Assembly (NCBI GenBank): GCA_031267895.1
Contig: JAIRYF010000019.1
Coordinates: 1-37,285 of the forward strand
Direction: 5' to 3'
Length of the DNA: 37,285 nucleotides
DNA from: Candidatus Methanoplasma glyptotermitis
Lineage (GTDB): Archaea; Thermoplasmatota; Thermoplasmata; Methanomassiliicoccales; Methanomethylophilaceae
Position numbers and translations under genes: made by a program. Below the pieces are notes generated by a model. It did no database searches and was not told the DNA's origin. It worked only from the letters and a program-made list of their open reading frames with translations. Shown here piece after piece: positions 1 to 37,285 of this stretch (position 1 is its first letter; the number at the start of each line of letters is the position of its first letter).

Positions 1-2341
1 CCCGCCCATACAGGGGGGGGGGGGAAATTATAATTTCCCCAGCCGTCTGAATGTAACTGTATTATTTGCTGCCGCTCTGTTTCTGGCAGCAGCATTCTTT
101 GTAACGTATTCCGAACAAAATGAGTCGGATGCTGCAGGTGTCATCGGTACATGGGGCTGCGGTTCCGGAGGCAGCAGCGACAGCAGTGTTACAGCGACTC
201 TTACGGATGACGGTGTTCTCACGATATCCGGTACTGGTGATATGGATAATTATGCCAATAGCACCTACAACAGGCAACCGTGGTACGATGATTCATCGAA
301 AATAACGAAAGTTATAATCGAATCAGGCGTAACATCCATCGGCGACTATGCATTCTACTACTGCTACAAAGTGGAAACCATTACAATAGGGGAAGACGTG
401 AAAACCATCGGTCACCATGCATTCTTATACCTCTCAATCCTGAAAACCGTGACAATATCCGACAAGGTGACAACCATCGGTCACCATGCATTCTATTATT
501 GCGAAAAACTGGCATCCATAACAATACCAAACAGCGTGACATCCATCGGAGAATCTGCGTTTGAGGGATGCGCAGGTCTCAAAACAGTGACGATACCTAA
601 TGGCGTAACATCCATCGAAAGCAATGTATTCAAGTACTGCTCCAAACTGGAAACAGTGACAATAGAGGGAGATGTGACATCCATCAGCGGATCTGCGTTC
701 TACAATTGCACCAGCCTGACATCTATAACAATGTCCGGCGACTTGAAAACTATCGGCGAATCTGCATTCTACAACTGCACCAAACTGGAAACCGTGACAG
801 TCATGGGCAAACATACGGATGCGGACGGAGTAATACAAGGGTATTTCAAGAAGGGAACAGACTGGAAACTTCCCGGAATGTCCCCAGACAGTGATACCTC
901 CATAAAATATCTGTTCCTTCCGGATATCAGTTCCGCGGATTACAATCCTAACGACGGCGACGGAGGCATAGCCGGAGCATACGGAAGAGGACTGTATTAC
1001 GGCAATACTAATTTCACATGGAACTATTACGTATCACTATGGGAGACCGATGGATTCGAAGTATCTCTTACATCGGAAACCGGAATCTCAGGTTTTGAAT
1101 ACAGTATCGTCAGAGGCGGCAGTTCTTCTGTCTATACAGGAGAGTATACAGATCCGTTAATCATTGGTAACGGATACAAGCTTACCGTAACCGCTCTGCT
1201 CGCAACAGGATATGAATTCAAAGAATGGTCCGGATATTCGGATTCCGAAGAGAATCTGTTGGTGGCAGAGTCGGTAACCGGTGCCGTATCCTTAACGGCA
1301 TCCGCCTCGAAGATCAAGTACTCGGTATCCGGTACACTCAAGGTAACAGGAGGGGCATCCGACTCCAAGGGTAAGATCGTAACCCTTACATCAACTTCAG
1401 ACAGCAAGGTTTACACCGCAGTCACAGAATCCGGCGGAACATACGAGATAGAGAATGTTCCTTACGGCACAGCCGGAAACATCACCGCAACAATAACGGG
1501 ATACTCTCAGACCGAGAGTCCGGAGACCATAGATTCGTTAGCCGGACCTCTGACCGGTCAGAACATTACGCTTATGGCTCTGTACACCGTAACCCTTACC
1601 GCAGGAACGGGAATATCAGGTTTCGAATACAGTATCAACGGCGAAGATACCGTTGATTATGAAGAACCGTTCCAAACGGAACACGGCGATACTCTTTCGG
1701 TAACCGCTCTTCTCACGGAAGGATACGAATTCAAAGAGTGGACGGGTTCCGATTCCGATGACAGTCAGTTGGAGATAGAGTCGGTAACCGGTGCCGTATC
1801 GGTAACAGCATCCGGTGAGCTGATACGATACGGTGTAACATTCGATTCAGGTTCGTATTATGCTGTGTACACAAAAGACGGTTCTCTTTCTTCTTCTGTG
1901 ATAAACGTAACTTACGGAAGCAGTCTGTTATTCGGAATACGTGTATCCGAAGGATATTCCGTATATCCTGTTGTTTCCGGAAATGCAAATATCATTCTCC
2001 AGACTGACGGATGGTACAGGATATCGGATATACGTTCCGATATCCTTGTCGGTATAGCCGTAAACACAGTATACGGAGACGGCGGTGGCACCGGCAACGG
2101 TTCCGGAGACAGTCCATACGGTAACGGTAACAGCTCAGGAACAGATACCCGCGGCAGCGGTTCCGGCGTAAACAGTTCCGGCAGCGGAAACGCAGGTAAC
2201 AGTACAGGAAGTGAAAACAACATACCTTATTGGATTCCGATTGCCATAGCGGCAGCGATTATCGCATGTGCCGTTGTAGCTCTGACAGGACAGATCTTGA
2301 TCAAACGCAGGAAGGAGGACGGGGAAGAAGACGGTAACTGA
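1..2341 (+). CDS. BspA-type LRR surface protein L1, 5' partial, G-tract phase-variable family
   Basis: The start codon lies before the window. The body frame is open from base 2 to the TGA at 2339-2341. After the G tract it encodes a hydrophobic signal-anchor (about bases 47-106) ending in the family motif FFVTYSE, then a cap (LTISGTGDM) and seven BspA/LRR_5 repeats of about 23 residues of the form VTSIGxxAFxxCxxLxTVTI (about 305-810). Next come beta-sandwich regions: a carboxypeptidase-regulatory-like module (about 1318-1570) and two InlB-B-repeat-like modules with EGYEFKEWTG-type motifs. A Ser/Gly/Asn-rich linker, one membrane helix (about 2224-2310) and a KRRKEDGEEDGN tail close the protein. 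BspA-like LRR proteins are typically adhesins on the cell surface; adhesion here is inference. If its leader equals that of L3, whose last 14 visible bases before the G run match, the ATG frame is out of frame with the body (12 G), so the gene is OFF in this sequence. Confidence 0.85.
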   Translation, partial: PPIQGGGGNYNFPSRLNVTVLFAAALFLAAAFFVTYSEQNESDAAGVIGTWGCGSGGSSDSSVTATLTDDGVLTISGTGDMDNYANSTYNRQPWYDDSSKITKVIIESGVTSIGDYAFYYCYKVETITIGEDVKTIGHHAFLYLSILKTVTISDKVTTIGHHAFYYCEKLASITIPNSVTSIGESAFEGCAGLKTVTIPNGVTSIESNVFKYCSKLETVTIEGDVTSISGSAFYNCTSLTSITMSGDLKTIGESAFYNCTKLETVTVMGKHTDADGVIQGYFKKGTDWKLPGMSPDSDTSIKYLFLPDISSADYNPNDGDGGIAGAYGRGLYYGNTNFTWNYYVSLWETDGFEVSLTSETGISGFEYSIVRGGSSSVYTGEYTDPLIIGNGYKLTVTALLATGYEFKEWSGYSDSEENLLVAESVTGAVSLTASASKIKYSVSGTLKVTGGASDSKGKIVTLTSTSDSKVYTAVTESGGTYEIENVPYGTAGNITATITGYSQTESPETIDSLAGPLTGQNITLMALYTVTLTAGTGISGFEYSINGEDTVDYEEPFQTEHGDTLSVTALLTEGYEFKEWTGSDSDDSQLEIESVTGAVSVTASGELIRYGVTFDSGSYYAVYTKDGSLSSSVINVTYGSSLLFGIRVSEGYSVYPVVSGNANIILQTDGWYRISDIRSDILVGIAVNTVYGDGGGTGNGSGDSPYGNGNSSGTDTRGSGSGVNSSGSGNAGNSTGSENNIPYWIPIAIAAAIIACAVVALTGQILIKRRKEDGEEDGN
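13..24 (+). repeat. Homopolymeric tract G12 in the L1 leader
   Basis: Twelve consecutive G lie in the coding leader of L1. The preceding bases (cccgcccataca) match the leader of L3 exactly. By analogy with L3 the upstream frame reads into an early stop; 10 or 13 G would join it to the body frame. Homopolymers of this length are known slippage hot spots in phase-variable bacterial genes. Confidence 0.8.
21..40. repeat. Perfect 20-bp palindrome abutting the G tract (L1)
   Basis: GGGGAAATTATAATTTCCCC equals its own reverse complement. Its left arm is the last four G of the tract. The same palindrome recurs in L3 (14769-14788) and in slightly decayed form in L4 and L5. It also encodes part of the NYNF motif that precedes the signal anchor. 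Confidence 0.85.
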
Positions 2342-6037: not shown

Positions 6038-8296
6038 ATGAATTTACGTTTTAATCTAGCGATCTTATCCGTCGCTGCTTTGTTTTTCGCAACAGCGGGT
6101 TTAGTAACGTATTCAGAACAGAATGGGTCGGATGCCGCCGGCGGGACCGCGGGAAGTTTGACATGGGACTTCACAAACGGTGTTCTCACGATATCCGGTG
6201 CAGGCGACATGGAAAATTATTCCGATCCAAGCAACAGACCGTGGCACGCCCATGAAACAGACATAACGAGCGCAGTAATCGGTTCGGATGTGACATCCAT
6301 CGGAAACATGGCATTAGACGGTTGCACAAAACTGACATCGATCGCCATACCCAACAGTGTGAAATCAATCGGCATCCGGGCATTCTCTGCGTGCAGCAGT
6401 CTGAAGTATGTCGATATACCGGACAGTGTAAAATCGATCGGCAGTCAGGCATTCTACGAATGCAGCAGCCTGGAGTCAATGAAAATACCCAATGGCGTGA
6501 CATCCATCAGTCAAGATATGTTATACAGCTGTTCCGGCCTGACACACGTTGACATACCGAACAGTGTAACATCTATCGGCAGCATGGCATTCTATGACTG
6601 CGGCAGTCTGGAATCCATTGACATACCGAACAGTGTGAAATCAATCGACAGTCAGGCATTCTATCTCTGTTCCAAACTCGCATCGGTCATCATACCCGAT
6701 GGTGTGGCATCTATGGGATTCAGCGCGTTCGAGAAATGCGCCAGTATGGAGTCTGTGACAATACCGGACAGCCTGACATCCATCGCTGATTATGCATTTG
6801 CAGATTGTATCAAACTCAAGACCGTCAAATTATCCAACAGTGCGATATCCATAAAAGTCGGAGCATTCTGGGGGTGCACTGATCTTGAGTCTGTGACAAT
6901 ACCGGACAGCCTGACATCCATAGAAACATTGGCATTTGCAGATTGCATCAACCTAACGTCTGTGACTATAACAGGCGGACTCGACAGTGAAGGAAGAGCA
7001 ATCACGAACGGAGTGATAGATAAGTATTTCAGCACAGGTAAGGACTGGATACTGTATCAAGCCCCCAACGCCGCAAAATATCTGTTCCTTCAGGATATCG
7101 ACTCCTCGGATTACGGCCCCAACGATGCCGAAGGCATAGCCGGGGCTGAAGGAAGGGAACTGCATTACAAAGACGCAGAATTCAGATGGGACGCGCCGTC
7201 CGGTCTGCAGGCAAGATGGGGATACACAATATCTGGGACCCTGACAGTCTCCGGAGGAACGGCATCCAATGCCGGTGTGACGGTATCTTTTGGATCACGT
7301 ACCGCGGTTACGGCATCTGATGGCAGTTATGCCATAAGAGATCTGCCGATAGGCATATCAGGCAATGTAACGGCAAAAATCCCCGGATATGTACAGACGG
7401 GGACACAGCCCCGTACATCCGGACTGACACAGAGTATGTCGGATGCGAACATAACTCTTTCAGCGGCACATACTGTGACTCTGACGAAAGGAACAGGAAT
7501 AAGCGGGTTCACATACGTGATGAACGGCGGTCCTACCGTAGACTATACGGTACCGTTTGACGCACCGTACGGCAGCAATCTTGTCATAAGTGCCTTGCTG
7601 TCGGATGGATATACGTTCGATAAATGGTCCGGTACGCAGAGTTCTTCGAATAATCCGCTGAGTGTATCGGGATTATCTGGCAGCATATCCCTGATGGCAT
7701 CTGGAATTTCGGCGAAACAATATGTTACGTTCGATTCCGGCTCGGACTACAGGGTGTACGTTGACAGTTCTCTTGTGACTCAGCCGATAGCCGTAGCGAA
7801 AGGAGGCAGTTTGATCTTCTCCGTACAGGTATCCGAAGGGTACACAGTACATCTTTCTGTTTCGGGAGATGCCGGCATGATTCTCCAGACGGATGGATTG
7901 TACAGGATATCTGACATGCGTTCTGATGTACATGTTAGCATAGCTGTACAGCCGGACGGCTCTGGAGACGGTTCCGGAAGCGGTTCCGGAAGCGGCAGCG
8001 GGTGGGCCGTGATAAACCTGATATGCGCAATTATTGCGCTGTCTGCAGGTATCATCGCGATGGTCGCAGGAAGGAGTCGCCGCGCCCGCGAGGGTGTGAC
8101 AGAAAAGAAGAGAAATTCTCTTTTTGTCAGGATAGTGGCGTTACTCATAGGTGCGGTGTCTGTGATAATGTTCCTGCTGACAGAGAACATAGGTTCTCAT
8201 GCGGGCATATCGGATACATGGACTCCGCTGTACGTCGGACTGCTGATAGTCGGTTTAGTCCTGACTGCGATAGGTGCCAGGCCCCGCAGGGATTAA
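6038..8296 (+). CDS. BspA-type LRR surface protein L2, no G tract, intact frame
   Basis: The ATG at 6038 follows a GGGAG ribosome site and begins directly with the signal peptide (MNLRFNLAIL... to LVTYSEQNGSDAA). This is the segment found after the G tract in L1, L3, L4 and L5. A GTG at 6014 in the same frame is a less likely start. The cap WDFTNGVLTISGAGDM precedes ten LRR_5 repeats of 23 residues (about 6290-6980). Then come a linker, a carboxypeptidase-regulatory-like domain (about 7220-7470), InlB-B-repeat-like modules with GYTFDKWSG, a Gly/Ser run, and a C-terminus unlike its paralogs: about three membrane helices with basic loops (about 8005-8290) instead of one helix plus a short tail. 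About 752 residues. The gene reads without interruption, so this paralog should be expressed constitutively. Surface adhesion is inferred from the family. Confidence 0.88.
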   Translation: MNLRFNLAILSVAALFFATAGLVTYSEQNGSDAAGGTAGSLTWDFTNGVLTISGAGDMENYSDPSNRPWHAHETDITSAVIGSDVTSIGNMALDGCTKLTSIAIPNSVKSIGIRAFSACSSLKYVDIPDSVKSIGSQAFYECSSLESMKIPNGVTSISQDMLYSCSGLTHVDIPNSVTSIGSMAFYDCGSLESIDIPNSVKSIDSQAFYLCSKLASVIIPDGVASMGFSAFEKCASMESVTIPDSLTSIADYAFADCIKLKTVKLSNSAISIKVGAFWGCTDLESVTIPDSLTSIETLAFADCINLTSVTITGGLDSEGRAITNGVIDKYFSTGKDWILYQAPNAAKYLFLQDIDSSDYGPNDAEGIAGAEGRELHYKDAEFRWDAPSGLQARWGYTISGTLTVSGGTASNAGVTVSFGSRTAVTASDGSYAIRDLPIGISGNVTAKIPGYVQTGTQPRTSGLTQSMSDANITLSAAHTVTLTKGTGISGFTYVMNGGPTVDYTVPFDAPYGSNLVISALLSDGYTFDKWSGTQSSSNNPLSVSGLSGSISLMASGISAKQYVTFDSGSDYRVYVDSSLVTQPIAVAKGGSLIFSVQVSEGYTVHLSVSGDAGMILQTDGLYRISDMRSDVHVSIAVQPDGSGDGSGSGSGSGSGWAVINLICAIIALSAGIIAMVAGRSRRAREGVTEKKRNSLFVRIVALLIGAVSVIMFLLTENIGSHAGISDTWTPLYVGLLIVGLVLTAIGARPRRD

Positions 8297-14699: not shown

Positions 14700-16837
14700 A
14701 TGAGCATCAAACTTCTGAGAGGAATCCTTTCCTCCGCCAAAACATCCGCCCGCCCATACAGGGGGGGGGGGGAAATTATAATTTCCCCGGCCGTCTGAAT
14801 ATAACAGTATTGTTTGCTGCTGCTCTGTTTCTCGCAGCAGCATTCTTTGTAACGTATTCCGAACCTGATGAATCGGATGCAGACATCGTAGGCAGCGGGA
14901 CCGAAGAAGATCCATGGTACTGCGGTCCCAGTGACAGCGACAGCGTGACAGCGACTCTTACGGATGACGGTGTTCTCACGATATCCGGTACCGGCAATAT
15001 GAACGATTACAGCAGTTATTCATCCACGCCGTGGTACAGCGTCAGGATGAACATAACCAGTATCATAATCGAATCAGGCGTGACATCCATCGGCGACTGG
15101 GCATTCTTTTACTGCATCAGCCTAAAAACCGTGACAATACCCAATGGCGTGACATCCATCGGCGAATATGCATTCTGTGGCTGCGAAAGCCTGACCTCCA
15201 TCGACATACCAGACAGCGTGATATTCATAGGCGACGTTGCATTCGCCGATTCCGGCCTGACATCTTTCGATATACCCAGCGGTATGAAAACCATCAGCAA
15301 TGGGGTATTCAGCGGCTCCGCCCTGCTCTCCATAGTCATACCGGACAGTGTGACATATATCGAATCCGGTGCATTCTACGGTTGCGCAAGCCTGACATCC
15401 ATTACAATACCGGACAGTGTGGAATTCCATGGATATGAGTCGGCAGGCGGAGAGATATTCTACGGCTGCACCAGCCTTGAAACCGTAACCGTAACAGGAG
15501 GACTTGCCGGTGAGGAGAAAACACTCTTAGAGGACGGAGTAATAGATCAGTTTTTCAAAGACGGAACGGACTGGAAACTGCCCAAAATGTACTCTGATCC
15601 TACTCCGATAAAGACTCTGAGATTGGAAGGTATCAGTTCCTCTGATTACGATCCCAACAACGAAGACGGAAAAGGAGGAATAGCCGGAGACGGAGGAAGA
15701 GAACTGTATTACAGCGATCTTGCATTCATATGGAATGAGGATACAGACGAATGGGATGAAGTCAGATATTCGGTATCGGGAACCATCTCGGTAACCGGCG
15801 GATCCGTATCCGCCGGGAACGTTACGGTATCTCTGATATCGTCTTCCGATCCGGATACCGTATATCAGGGAACAGTCGAAGAGAACGGAGACTACACCAT
15901 AACCGGAGTTCCTTACGGCACAACCGGAAACATAACGGTAACGCTGACGGGATACCATCAGACCGATACGGTATCGGTAACCGATCTGAAAAGCAACGAA
16001 ACAGGTAAGAGTATTGATCTGGAAATCAACGAGTACACCGTAACTCTCCCCGCAGAAGGAACGGAAGGAATATCCGGTTTCGAATACAGTATCAACGGCA
16101 GCGGTACCGCTGTGCCGTATACAGAACCGTTCAAAGTAAACCACGGAGATACTCTTACCGTAACTGCTCTGCTCTCCGAAGGATATGCATCCGTCTCATG
16201 GTCGGGATACCCCGAGTCTTCTGTGCAGAATCCCGGAGATGATTCGTTAACCGTACTGTCAGTACCGGGAAACATATCCTTAACGGTATATGCTTCCCTT
16301 ATACCCGTTACTCCGTCGCCTTCGGATACGTACCGTGTTGCATTCAGTTCCGGTTCCTACTATACAGTATATGCGGTGGACGGTTCTCCGATATCATCTT
16401 CATCAATCTCCGTAACGGAAGGAGGAAGTCTTACATTCGGAATACAGGCATCAGAAGGATATACTGCATATCCTTCCGTTGTTTCCGGAAGTGCAAAGAT
16501 TACTGCTCAGGCTGACGGACGGTATATGATATCCGATATACGTTCCGATATCCTTGTCGGTATAACCGTAAACACAGTATCCGGAGACGGTTCCGGTAAC
16601 GGCAGCAGCGGTTCAGGCACCGATATAGGGAGTAACGGAAATAGTTCCGGCAACAGCACCGGAAGCAGCGGATCGGGAAACGGAAGCATAAACAGCAACA
16701 GTACAGACAGTGAAAACAGTATATCTTACTGGATTCCTGTTCTCATAATTGCAGTGTTCCTTGTATGTATCGGAATTGCATGGATATTCCTGTTCTTCAT
16801 TAAACGCAGGAAGGATGAGGAAGAAGACGGCAATTGA
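14700..16837 (+). CDS. BspA-type LRR surface protein L3, G-tract gene, phase OFF as sequenced
   Basis: ATG at 14700 follows AAGGAG with ideal spacing and reads MSIKLLRGILSSAKTSARPY before the G12 tract. With 12 G this frame continues as GGGEIIISPAV and stops at 14796-14798. The body is open in another frame; 10 or 13 G would fuse them. A caller will probably use GTG 14690, which lies in the body frame but overlaps the SD itself, so it is unlikely to be the start. The body encodes NYNFPGRLN, a signal anchor (VLFAAALFLAAAFFVTYSE), the cap LTISGTGNM, about six LRR_5 repeats (15060-15500), a carboxypeptidase-regulatory-like domain (about 15765-16020), InlB-B-repeat-like modules, a Ser/Gly/Asn linker, one membrane helix (about 16725-16800) and KRRKDEEEDGN. 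Its C-terminal half is close to L1. Confidence 0.87.
14761..14772 (+). repeat. Homopolymeric tract G12 in the L3 leader
   Basis: Twelve G follow codon 20 (tac agg...) of the ATG 14700 frame. One more G (13), or two fewer (10), gives the continuous reading RGGGGNYNF or RGGGNYNF into the LRR body. Confidence 0.88.
14769..14788. repeat. Perfect 20-bp palindrome abutting the G tract (L3)
   Basis: Identical to the palindrome of L1 (GGGGAAATTATAATTTCCCC). In DNA it could extrude as a cruciform; in mRNA it could form an 8-bp stem with a UAUA loop. Confidence 0.85.
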
Positions 16838-18295: not shown

Positions 18296-18828
18296 GCTGA
18301 TCAACCCCATTGTCAGCAATGTAATAAACGTTTCGTACCGGGCTTTGGTGAAACCACGGAGACGGTTGATAGCCCATTGTGCAATTCACTACCGACGGAA
18401 GCTCCCCGAAAGGAATGGCCGGCCGAGGATGGAACCAATGCGCTCATCAGACGATTCTTTTAAGGAAAAAGATCTGCATTATTCAGATCACGTCAATGGT
18501 CTGGATAAGACAGGGTCCCCGGATACTTCTCAGAATACAGCAACAAGGATCCGGATGCAACTGGATTTTTCTGCCCAATGTACTCAGACACTTCGTCCGA
18601 GGCAGGGGAAGGAGCAGAAGAGGTGCGGCCGTCTACACGATATGTGCTGCTTTTGGCTGTGCGTGCCCGTACCGCAATCCGCACGGGCCTGCTGGGGGGG
18701 GGACATTGGATTATGATATATGCAATCAATATGGTTTGCACGCGAACGTGCCATGCATTATATATACATGGGTGCCAGTGCACATCCGTCGCTGTAAAAT
18801 ATGGCATCATACAATGAGGAGAAACCCC
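18296..18828. other. Region upstream of L4 with a hairpin and a non-coding G9 tract
   Basis: No supported gene. Features seen: hairpin GCCCGT (18665-18670) with ACGGGC (18683-18688), a run of nine G at 18694-18702, and the L4 promoter. A single copy of GGTGAAACCA at about 18347-18356 resembles the MITE end, but no partner end was found. Confidence 0.45.
18757..18766 (+). promoter_or_regulatory. TATA box of L4
   Basis: ATTATATATA lies about 67 bases before ATG 18829. The leader ends in atacaatgaggag, matching the SD context of L3 (atacaataaggag) and L5 (gtacaataaggag). Confidence 0.6.
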
Positions 18829-20663
18829 ATGAATACTAAACTTCTGAAAGGATTTATCTCCCTCATCGGAATCACTGAGGGGGGGGGGGGAATTATAATT
18901 TCCCCAGCCGTCTGAACATAACAGTCTTACTCGCAGTTGCTTTATTTCTTGCGGTGGCATTCTTTGTAACATACACGGAACCAAATGAATCGGATGCCGA
19001 CGGTGGCGGTTCTGCGGGACCGTCGGTGACATGGACTCTTACAGGCACTACTCTTACTATATCCGGTTCCGGTACCATGTATGATTATACTCCTAATTCT
19101 TATCCGCCGTGGCAAAGTGAGAAAGCAAATGTGCAGATAATCAACATAGAGCCGGGTGTGACGTCCATCGGCGATTATTCGTTCAATTGGCTTGAGAACC
19201 TGGTGTCCGTTACAATACCAAACAGCGTGACATCCGTCGGTGCCGGAGCATTCTATAACTGCTACAGACTCGAGTCGGTAACAATACCGAATGGTGTGAC
19301 ATCCATAAAGAATGAGACATTCAATGGATGCAACGGCCTCGAAACCGTTGTCATACCCGACAGCGCGGAATCCATCGGCTACTATGCATTCAACTACTGC
19401 AACAGCCCGACATCTATTACGATACCAAACAGCGTGAAGTCCATCGGTAAGTCGGCATTTGATGGTTGTGTCAAACTCGAATCCGTGACAATGTCCGACA
19501 GCATGGAAACCATCGGCGATATGGCATTCTATGGCTGCACCAAGCTAGAATCCGTGACGATACCCGACAGCGCAGAAACCATTGGCCGCTATGCGTTCTA
19601 TAACTGCTCCGGCCTGACTTCGATCGTCATACCCGACAGCGCAGTATTCTCGGGCACACACGTATTCGCAGGATGCTCCGTACTCAAAATCGTAACCGTC
19701 ACCGGCAGTTATGCAGACACGGACGGAGTAATAGGCAGGTATTTTAGCGCAGGCGGGGAATGGAAGCTGCCATACGCACCTTACGCCGCGGAATCTCTGA
19801 GGCTCAGAGATATCAGCTACAAAGAATACAGCCCCGACAACCTTGACCTGAAAGGAGGCATAGATGGAGACACAGGAAGAATGCTGACTTATAAAGACGA
19901 CAGTTATACGTGGGATACCGTATCAGAATCGTGGGGTTCTGCACGTTCCGTCTCCGGAACCCTTACCGTAAAGGGCGGATCGGCATCCGCCGGAAATGCG
20001 GATGTCTGTCTGGAATATCTAGGATTGAAGTACAATGCAAAAATCACCGGAACCCATTATAGCATAGAGAATGTGCCGAAGGGCGCGTCCGGTTATGTAA
20101 CGGCGGCAATCCCTGGATACTATCAGACGGCAATACCGTTCATACCCTCTCTGGACACAGACATATCGGGCGCGAATCTGGTTCTGACGGCATACGGAGA
20201 ACAGATACAGTACGCCGTGACATTCGGTTCCGGTCCGAACTATGCGGCATATGCAAACGGCTCTCCGGTATCTTCTCAGGTAACTGTTTCGGAAGGAGGA
20301 TATCTGACATTCGGAGTACTGGCATCCGAAGGATATTCCGCATCTCCGGCCGTATCCGGCAGCGCGAAGATTGTTCTTCAGACGGACGGATGGTACAGAA
20401 TATCAGAAATACATTCGGATGTTTACGTTACCGTAACGGTATCCGCAGATGCAGATAACGGTTCAGGAAGAGGTTCCGACAGCGGATCCGGTAGCAACTC
20501 GGATAACGGAAATGCAGACTCGGAAGGAGACTCCGGAAACGACGGAATGTTCTATGCTGTTTTTACTATCATAATTGCGGCATTTATTGTCTGCATAGCA
20601 GCATCGTTCATTTTGTTTATTATCAGGCGCAGGGAGGATGACAGGGAAGAGGACGGCAGATGA
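18829..20663 (+). CDS. BspA-type LRR surface protein L4, G-tract gene, phase OFF as sequenced
   Basis: ATG 18829 follows GAGGAG and reads MNTKLLKGFISLIGITE into the G12 tract. With 12 G it continues GGGGIIISPAV and stops at 18913-18915. With 10 or 13 G it would enter the body, which reads NYNFPSRLN, signal anchor (TVLLAVALFLAVAFFVTYTE), the cap LTISGSGTM, eight LRR_5 repeats (about 19150-19705), a carboxypeptidase-regulatory-like domain (about 19945-20190), one InlB-like module, a Gly/Ser/Asp linker, one membrane helix (about 20548-20620) and RRREDDREEDGR. Shorter than L1 and L3, with fewer C-terminal modules. An automatic call would start at the internal GTG 18954, inside the signal peptide. 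Stop TGA 20661-20663. Confidence 0.87.
18879..18890 (+). repeat. Homopolymeric tract G12 in the L4 leader
   Basis: Twelve G beginning at the third base of the GAG codon 17. The following palindrome is one A shorter than in L1 and L3 (GGGAATTATAATTTCCC), so it is no longer perfect. Frame restored at 10 or 13 G. Confidence 0.88.
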
Positions 20664-34770: not shown

Positions 34771-37285
34771 ATGAATATGAAATCTTCAAGAGAAATTATC
34801 TCTTCCCTGAGTGTAACACACAGGCAGGGGGGGGGGGAATTATAATTTTCCCCGCCGTCTGAACACGACGGTCTTGTTCGCTGTTGCTTTATTTCTGGCA
34901 GCAGCATTCTTTGTAACATACTCTGAACCGAATGAGTCGGATGCTGCCAATGGTGTCTTTGCATCCGGAGCAGTGTGGGACCTTACAGGCGACACTCTAA
35001 CGATAACCGGTCCCGGTGCTATGGATGATTTCTTGGTACAGGGAGCACCGTGGTTCGGCGACGGAGCGGACGTAACAAGCGTTGTAATCGGATCGGGCGT
35101 AACAACTATCGGCAACAATGCATTCGAAGGCTGCCTCAACCTGACATCCGTTGTCATACCGAGTAGTGTGACGACCATCGGTGAAAATGCATTCCGTGGG
35201 TGCGTAAGACTGACAACCATCGATATTAGCAACGTGACAAGCATCTATGAACATGCATTCTATGGGTGCCTCAGCCTGATATCCGTTGATCTTAGCAACG
35301 TGACATCTCTCTATAATGGTGCCTTTACGGCCTGCGAAAGCCTGAGATCTGTGACAATGCCCAGCAACATAACATTCATTGGCGACCGTATGTTTATAGG
35401 TTGTATAAGCTTGACGTCTATCGATTTTAGCAATGTAATAGCCATAGGCCAGGAAGCATTCTCTCGTACTGGTCTGATATCTGCTGATCTCAGCAATATG
35501 CAACACATCGGCGAGCGTGCATTCGCGGAGTGCTACAGCCTGATATCCGTTGATCTCAGCAATATGCAATCCATAGGTCGAGATGCATTTGGTAATTGTA
35601 CAAGCTTGACATCCGTTGATCTTAGCAACGTGGGTTACATAGGTGAAGGTGCATTCAAAGCGTGCTTCAGCCTGGCATCCGTCGTCATACCGAGTAGTGT
35701 GACGGTCATCAACGAATATACATTCGCCAGTTGCATCAGTTTGGAATCTATTGTTATTCCGGATACTGTGGTGATCGGTACCTATGCGTTCGCTGATTGC
35801 GATGTCCTGACATCCGTTACAGCGGTAATGGCAGTGACACCTCAGGGAGGAATATATATTGACCCGTTCGGACTCATCAGCGAGTATTTCATTCCTACCA
35901 GGACCTGGGTGCTGCCCGATGCACCTAAAGCCGTAACGTCTCTTACGTTTGGTATCCAAAGTACAGATTTTGATCCCAATAGCAACATAGCCGGAGACGT
36001 TGGAAGAGTGCTGCATTACACCGATGCTGACTTTGCGTGGGATGCAGGTACGAGTAGCTGGGTAGTTGCTGCGTGTTCGGTATCCGGACACCTGACGGTA
36101 AACGGAGGAGCATCCAACGCCAATGTTACGGTGTCTCTTGCGGGATACGCTGCGCTCACCGATTCGAACGGCGACTATACCATAGCAGTTCCTCTCGGAA
36201 CATCCGGAGGCATAGGCGCAGCGATAGCAGGATATCATCCGAGCGTTTTCGCGTCCGTAACATCGATAAGCGGAAACGAATCCGGCAAGGACATTACGCT
36301 GGACATCGACATGTTCTCGGTATCCGGAAGTGTAACGGTTAACGGATCGCCCGGTGTCAATATCCCTGTATCTCTTGTGGGATACACTGCGCTCACCGAT
36401 TCGTACGGCAGCTACATAATACTGAATGTTCCCTACGGAACGTCGGGAAGCATAACCGCGGCGGCAGCGGGATATGCTCAGGTGAGTATCCCCAGCGTAA
36501 CGCTGACAAGCGGAAACGCAACCAACCAGGACATTTTGCTTGTGTCAGGGCCTTTGATATTCGGACACCTGACGGTAAACGGAGGAACGGCATCCAACGT
36601 TGGAGTTATGGTAGTCCTATTCCCTTCGGGATTTGCGCTCACCGACGGGAACGGCAACTATACCATAGCAGTTCCTCTCGGAACATCCGGAAACATAACC
36701 GCATCCATTCCGGGATACACCCAAACGGGAACGGCATCCGTAACATCGATAAGCGGAAACGAATCCGGTAAGGACATTACGCTGGACATCGACATATTCT
36801 CGGTATACGGACGCCTGACGGTAGTGGGAGGAGCATCCAATGTCGGCGTGACAGTCTCTCTGGGAGCGTACACCGCAGTCACCGATGCAAGCGGTGACTA
36901 CACCATAACCGGAGTCCCTTACGGAACATCCGGAAACATAACCGCATCCGTACCCGGATACGTTCAGACGGTTACTCTGAATGTAGCACCGCTGACTTAC
37001 CATCTTTTCAATCAGAATCTTAGGTTTTTGCCAGGGTTTTCAGTATCTGGTAATCTCGCGGTAAACGGAGGAGCATCCAACGCCAATGTTACGGTGTCTC
37101 TTGCGGGATACGCTGCGCTCACCGACGGGAGTGGCGACTACATAATCGCAGTTCGTCCCGGAACATCCGGAAGCATAACCGCATCCATTGCGGGATACAC
37201 CCAAACGGGAACGGCATCCGTAACATCGATAAGCGGAAACGAATCCGGTAAGGATATTGCGCTGACGCTGAACGCGTATGTTTAC
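34771..37285 (+). CDS. BspA-type LRR surface protein L5, G-tract gene, phase OFF as sequenced, 3' partial
   Basis: ATG 34771 follows AAGGAG and reads MNMKSSREIISSLSVTHRQ into a G11 tract. With 11 G it stops at 34843-34845; with 10 or 13 G it would enter the body (frame of 34838), which stays open to the window end. The body reads NYNFPRRLN, signal anchor (TVLFAVALFLAAAFFVTYSE), the cap LTITGPGAM, about eleven LRR_5 repeats (35095-35825; several shortened to 21-22 residues with DLSN instead of IPNS), a spacer (to about 36070), then five tandem carboxypeptidase-regulatory-like modules of about 80 residues. The end lies outside the window. A long minus-strand open frame over 34997-36238 is a by-product of codon bias. 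Confidence 0.86.
34827..34837 (+). repeat. Homopolymeric tract G11 in the L5 leader
   Basis: Eleven G from the last base of a CAG codon. The adjoining palindrome is altered to GGGGAATTATAATTTTCCCC. Frame restored at 10 or 13 G, so the sequenced state is one deletion from ON. Confidence 0.88.
36076..37285 (+). repeat. Five tandem 240-bp repeats in L5
   Basis: Units begin near 36076, 36316, 36556, 36799 and 37039, each encoding SVSGxLTVNGGASNxxVTVS and then a GTSGxITA..GY pattern. DNA identity between units 1 and 5 is very high (for example gtgtctcttgcgggatacgc in both), so recent duplication or conversion is likely. Unit number may vary between strains. Confidence 0.8.

Follow-up and report, generated by a model that had tools for sequence, protein, structure and literature searches.

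The genome analysed here, that of a methanogenic archaeon, encodes a family of about 45 BspA-type leucine-rich repeat (LRR) surface proteins, L5 among them, that is probably subject to slipped-strand phase variation. This reading rests on the architecture of the genes, the lengths of their G tracts, their reading frames, an in-frame (ON) class common to most members, and differences in tract length between near-identical paralogues, all of them observed directly. The genes are built on one plan: behind a ribosome-binding site and an ATG come a leader of ~15-22 codons, 10-13 consecutive Gs, a short N-x-x-F-P element, a signal peptide and, wherever the contig permits reading, a BspA-type LRR body. 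In the proposed mechanism, slippage of the DNA polymerase at the G run would add or remove Gs. With 10 or 13 G, leader and signal peptide would share one frame and the protein would be made; with 11 or 12 G, translation would usually end within ~10 codons of the tract. We infer that tract lengths change in vivo and that in-frame but not out-of-frame cells make the protein, and any statement on what the proteins bind is of the same kind. As in recognized contingency loci, the tracts are placed where a change of one G alters the reading frame, and they occur far more often than chance predicts, both against shuffles of the window and when G tracts of at least eight are compared with A tracts of at least nine across the genome.

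The window, that is, the whole stretch of 37,285 nucleotides, is the entire contig C46 and contains five LRR genes (Table 1), all five of which match LRR_5 (PF13306, BspA-type LRR) above the Pfam curated cut-off. It contains 16 overlapping matches to runs of at least nine Gs, against 0.21 expected from shuffles. Read from its ATG, L5 passes through the tract as CAG GGG GGG GGG GAA TTA TAA and terminates at the stop within the post-tract element; the body is read as AAT TAT AAT from the first base behind the tract, so that a shift of -1 (or +2) is required. Lengths, starts and frames of L3, L4 and L5 were read off the sequence and then recomputed by script, and both agree with the initial annotation that L5, with 11 G, needs one G fewer, and that L3 and L4, with 12 G, need one more. 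All three would thus be OFF, one slip short of ON. Their starts are sound, since the ATG, the ribosome-binding site and the leader pattern repeat across the family. Internal starts in the body frame (TTG 34874 in L5, GTG 18954 in L4) are not favoured; they differ from gene to gene and would truncate the signal peptide. A further G9 tract (18694-18702) lies ~125 bases upstream of the L4 ATG and upstream of a TATA-like stretch (cattatatatac), where it might affect L4 transcription. Each end of the contig (1-40 and 37285) falls within an LRR-type gene, and genome-wide several contigs start or stop no more than ~170 bases from a family tract, a pattern that breaks of the assembly in the shared signal-peptide region would produce.

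Table 1. Coordinates of the parts of L5 and of the other LRR genes in the window
Feature	Position	Strand	Basis or remark
TATA-box-like TTATATA, upstream of L5	34695..34701	+	Sequence; putative archaeal promoter
AAGGAG ribosome-binding site, L5	34756..34761	+	Sequence; motif kept in nearly all family members
L5 leader, begins MNMKSSREIISSLSVTHR	34771..34826	+	Sequence and family script; ATG at 34771
L5 G11 tract	34827..34837	+	Sequence; 10 or 13 G would be in frame
Post-tract element AATTATAATTTTCCCC, conserved	34838..34853	+	Body frame N-Y-N-F-P; holds off-frame stop TAA 34843-34845
L5 body: signal peptide, BspA-type LRR_5, CarboxypepD_reg-like repeats	34838..37285	+	Open at contig end
L3: ATG 14700, G12 14761-14772, body from 14774	14700..16837	+	Needs +1 (or -2)
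L4: ATG 18829, G12 18879-18890, body from 18891	18829..20663	+	Needs +1 (or -2)
L1: G12 13-24 and body	13..2341	+	Leader beyond contig start, hence no frame state readable
L2: LRR_5 paralogue, ATG at signal peptide, without G tract	6038..8296	+	Apparently always in frame

The scan of the genome (1,717,415 bases in 72 contigs) returned 99 hits for eight consecutive Gs preceded by another base, which after reading of the loci gave 98 distinct tracts of at least eight Gs; tracts of at least nine As number only 11 in the same 1.72 Mb. The family script assigned 45 tracts to the surface-protein family and 59 to the rest, 5 of the latter being shorter than 8 G. Taken as assembly consensus, the lengths within the family are 11 G (21 members), 12 G (20), 10 G (2), 13 G (1) and 6 G (1). 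Two members at contig starts have no readable leader, and the remaining 43 were scored for frame. Their starts are ATG, GTG or TTG with a ribosome-binding-site-like motif in 42 cases, and an ATG without the motif in L059; the start of L091 is a TTG as chosen by the script. L072 (at 1546, + strand) has 6 G only, after the interruption GGAGGGGGG, and was scored out of frame, slipping not being expected there; its body is nevertheless open over ~600 codons despite the short tract, which counts against the switch. With L059, L091 and L072 counted in, 21 members need +1, 18 need -1 and 4 are in frame, namely L060 (G11), L063 (G13), L078 (G10, at a contig end) and L102 at 3759 (G11).

The phases of leader and element are coupled. 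Leader phase 1 goes with element phase 1 in 20 members and leader phase 2 with element phase 0 in 18, with 5 exceptions, which places 38 of the 43 members in the class that is ON at 10 or 13 G (L072, with 6 G, falls in the same residue class). In L069 and L070 an additional C behind the tract preserves this class. When the pairing was shuffled 20,000 times the largest class averaged 21.0 and 38 was never reached, a value that is descriptive only because shared ancestry of leaders and elements reduces the number of independent cases. Since one ON class holds in 38 of 43 members, the sign of the required shift mostly tells whether a tract has 11 or 12 G, and the opposite signs of L5 and of L3 and L4 arise because all three are in frame at 10 or 13 G and sit at 11 or 12. 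The initial annotation had taken these opposite offsets as the mark of independent slippage. Slippage remains the best reading and the signs are indeed mixed genome-wide, but with a shared ON class the sign in one gene is not independent of that in the others.

Selection on the parts around the tract was considered as well. Differences between leaders fall on codon positions 1, 2 and 3 in 391, 330 and 421 cases; with so little codon-position signature, the case for the leader being selected as a protein is weak. A hairpin of tract and element as a selected structure was set aside: a fold is predicted for 18 of 18 element variants, yet in most of them it is matched by 16-19% of the synonymous codings.

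Eleven or twelve identical bases in a row can be slippery for RNA polymerase as well. One paper (PMC1088944) deals with A and T runs in bacteria. Transcriptional slippage, in which RNA polymerase adds or drops Gs so that part of the mRNA would be in frame however long the DNA tract is, without any switch in the DNA, is an unlikely explanation on its own, although the direction of the shifts does not by itself speak against it. The initial annotation had argued from direction alone; this counts against programmed ribosomal frameshifting, whereas slipping transcripts can gain or lose Gs and mixed directions pose them no problem. Two observations speak against transcriptional slippage. Near-identical paralogues differ in length at the DNA level: among 11 pairs at least 93% identical on both flanks, a comparison between paralogues only, drawn from a few related and hence non-independent members, tract length differs in 8, and the near-identical leaders of L062, L078 and L089 (MNMKSSKGITSS, then P or L, then GVTHG) are followed by 11, 10 and 12 G. 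In addition, transcriptional slippage leaves the rarity of in-frame lengths without a reason. Slippage at the DNA level and in transcription could also act together.

Errors of sequencing or assembly, by which the tract lengths would be wrong and the genes truly in frame, are very improbable. Homopolymers are error-prone, and the assembly does break at these repeats, as the 72 contigs and the several tracts close to contig ends indicate; a uniform error of one G, however, would rescue most 11 G genes or most 12 G genes, never both. No more credible is programmed ribosomal frameshifting at the G run, with a fixed share of ribosomes changing frame to make the body. The element 3' of the run is able to fold with it, but the fold overlaps the tract without a spacer and is not unusual against synonymous codings (fractions mostly 0.16-0.19), and the members require opposite shifts where such a device would need the same one; the contrast between mixed and one-way shifts, drawn initially from three genes, is borne out by the genome-wide 21 and 18. 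That the out-of-frame genes are decayed pseudogenes, as their majority might suggest, is practically negligible, since their bodies are long and open, with only two closed bodies of fewer than 300 codons, and the OFF genes do not resemble decayed ones.

Under DNA-level slippage, the scarcity of ON members calls for comment. Four of 43 in frame is well below one third (binomial p = 0.0005, with paralogues whose independence is reduced by kinship and by gene conversion). Within the 10/13 class, members with tracts of at least 8 G are in frame in 2 of 37 cases, where the pooled lengths predict 8.7 (permutation p = 0.00055), and lengths of 10 or 13 versus 11 or 12 G number 3 versus 41 in the family and 20 versus 29 among tracts of at least 8 G elsewhere in the genome (Fisher p = 0.0002). 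Because these tests draw on overlapping data, from which the hypothesis itself arose, and the paralogues are kin, the excess is suggestive only; it suggests a repertoire that is OFF by default and is no proof of selection for OFF. We tentatively consider it possible, though rather less than even, that the family is tuned in this manner: 10 and 13 flank the common 11 and 12, so that most genes would be off in any one cell, a single slip in one direction would turn a gene ON, and a population would display many sparse combinations of surface proteins. If so, this would be a large slippage-based repertoire of antigens or adhesins in an archaeon.

G tracts also lie in other genes of the genome. 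Pfam matches above cut-off beside tracts include MethyltransfD12 (L038, a DNA adenine methylase), Methylase_S on both sides of the tract (L040) and ResIII (L052), as well as Peripla_BP_2 (L046, L075, two binding-protein genes), LRR_5 (L097, L103) and Big_5 (L082). By their frame sums, the open stretches flanking the tracts of L038, L040 and L052 are mutually out of frame at the assembled length. In L040 (at 1540, - strand) the G10 tract lies between two Methylase_S half-domains (HsdS-like), out of frame as assembled, and possibly switches the specificity of a type I restriction-modification system. At L082 (at 1519, - strand) a family-like leader (MNPKPLEEIISSVKTSARPS) and a G13 tract precede a secreted protein that is not of the LRR type and matches Big_5; here the leader may have been transferred, together with its tract, to a gene outside the family. 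Among bacterial phase-variable loci, most fall into two classes, surface structures and restriction-modification genes (PMC11868660).

The host is a pyrrolysine-encoding methanogen. McrA and PylS are found above cut-off in the genome, and the window itself encodes an archaeal TATA-binding protein (TBP) and RLI; together with a transporter that resembles the TMAO permease, at a score below that family's cut-off, McrA and PylS suggest Methanomassiliicoccales. If TAG is read as pyrrolysine, this does not touch the relevant stops, TAA and TGA. A search that detected MutS1 in Methanosarcina and Haloferax controls detected none in this genome or in 40 relatives, a point in favour of slippage. The element family was likewise found in none of the 40 relatives, two of which have one match each with one mismatch, and the element pattern had no match in IMG/VR. 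Tracts of at least 10 G are also numerous in two genomes of the same genus (G014, G003), where some precede secreted proteins, but the leader-tract-element arrangement of the family is absent from both. LRR_5 matches are many in G000, G003, G014 and G018; G018 is LRR-rich yet has two tracts of at least 10 G, so LRR-rich genomes are not always tract-rich. Very long G runs at contig ends in G014, of 83 (L266, start of C65) and 25 (L261, end of C46), are probably assembly artefacts. In a contig scan of other genomes, the own genome excluded, a single locus was archaeal (L202, Candidatus Methanomethylophilaceae); the rest came from bacteria of the gut and elsewhere.

On/off poly-G switches are known from bacteria, and no description for an archaeon was found in the literature searched; for archaeal phase variation by sequence repeats in general, no precedent was identified at the level of titles and abstracts in a partial coverage of that literature. 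Why phase variation at many loci seems confined to pathogens is a question raised in a 2025 review, which allows database bias as a reason and looks to archaeal phylogenies for future work (PMC11868660). Tens of G-tract switches in the surface and DNA-modification genes of a methanogen would bear directly on this question. If the reading is true, gene prediction would miss or split many surface proteins in such genomes, because the assembly has the body in a different frame from the start. Work on Methanomassiliicoccales (PMC7883539, PMC10673518) concerns what is probably the same methanogen order and likewise LRR and other adhesion-type (adhesin-like) surface proteins; there, the proteins are counted or described, and a term search of the two papers gave no mention of phase variation or frameshift. 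In Bifidobacterium breve, slippage at intragenic G tracts links a leader ORF to a surface-protein ORF of a sortase-pilus system, with G11 and G12 populations (PMC9187656). That organism is a gut commensal in which the length of an intragenic G tract decides whether a leader ORF continues into a surface-protein ORF; two loci with population data are described there, compared with ~45 read from the assembly here. The phasome of Campylobacter, with its poly-G contingency loci (PMC6321876), is similar in having mononucleotide G tracts across many genes per genome and in the recurrence of surface functions in such loci. It differs in being bacterial, whereas here an archaeon has ~45 paralogues with one leader-tract-element arrangement and, mostly, one in-frame class.
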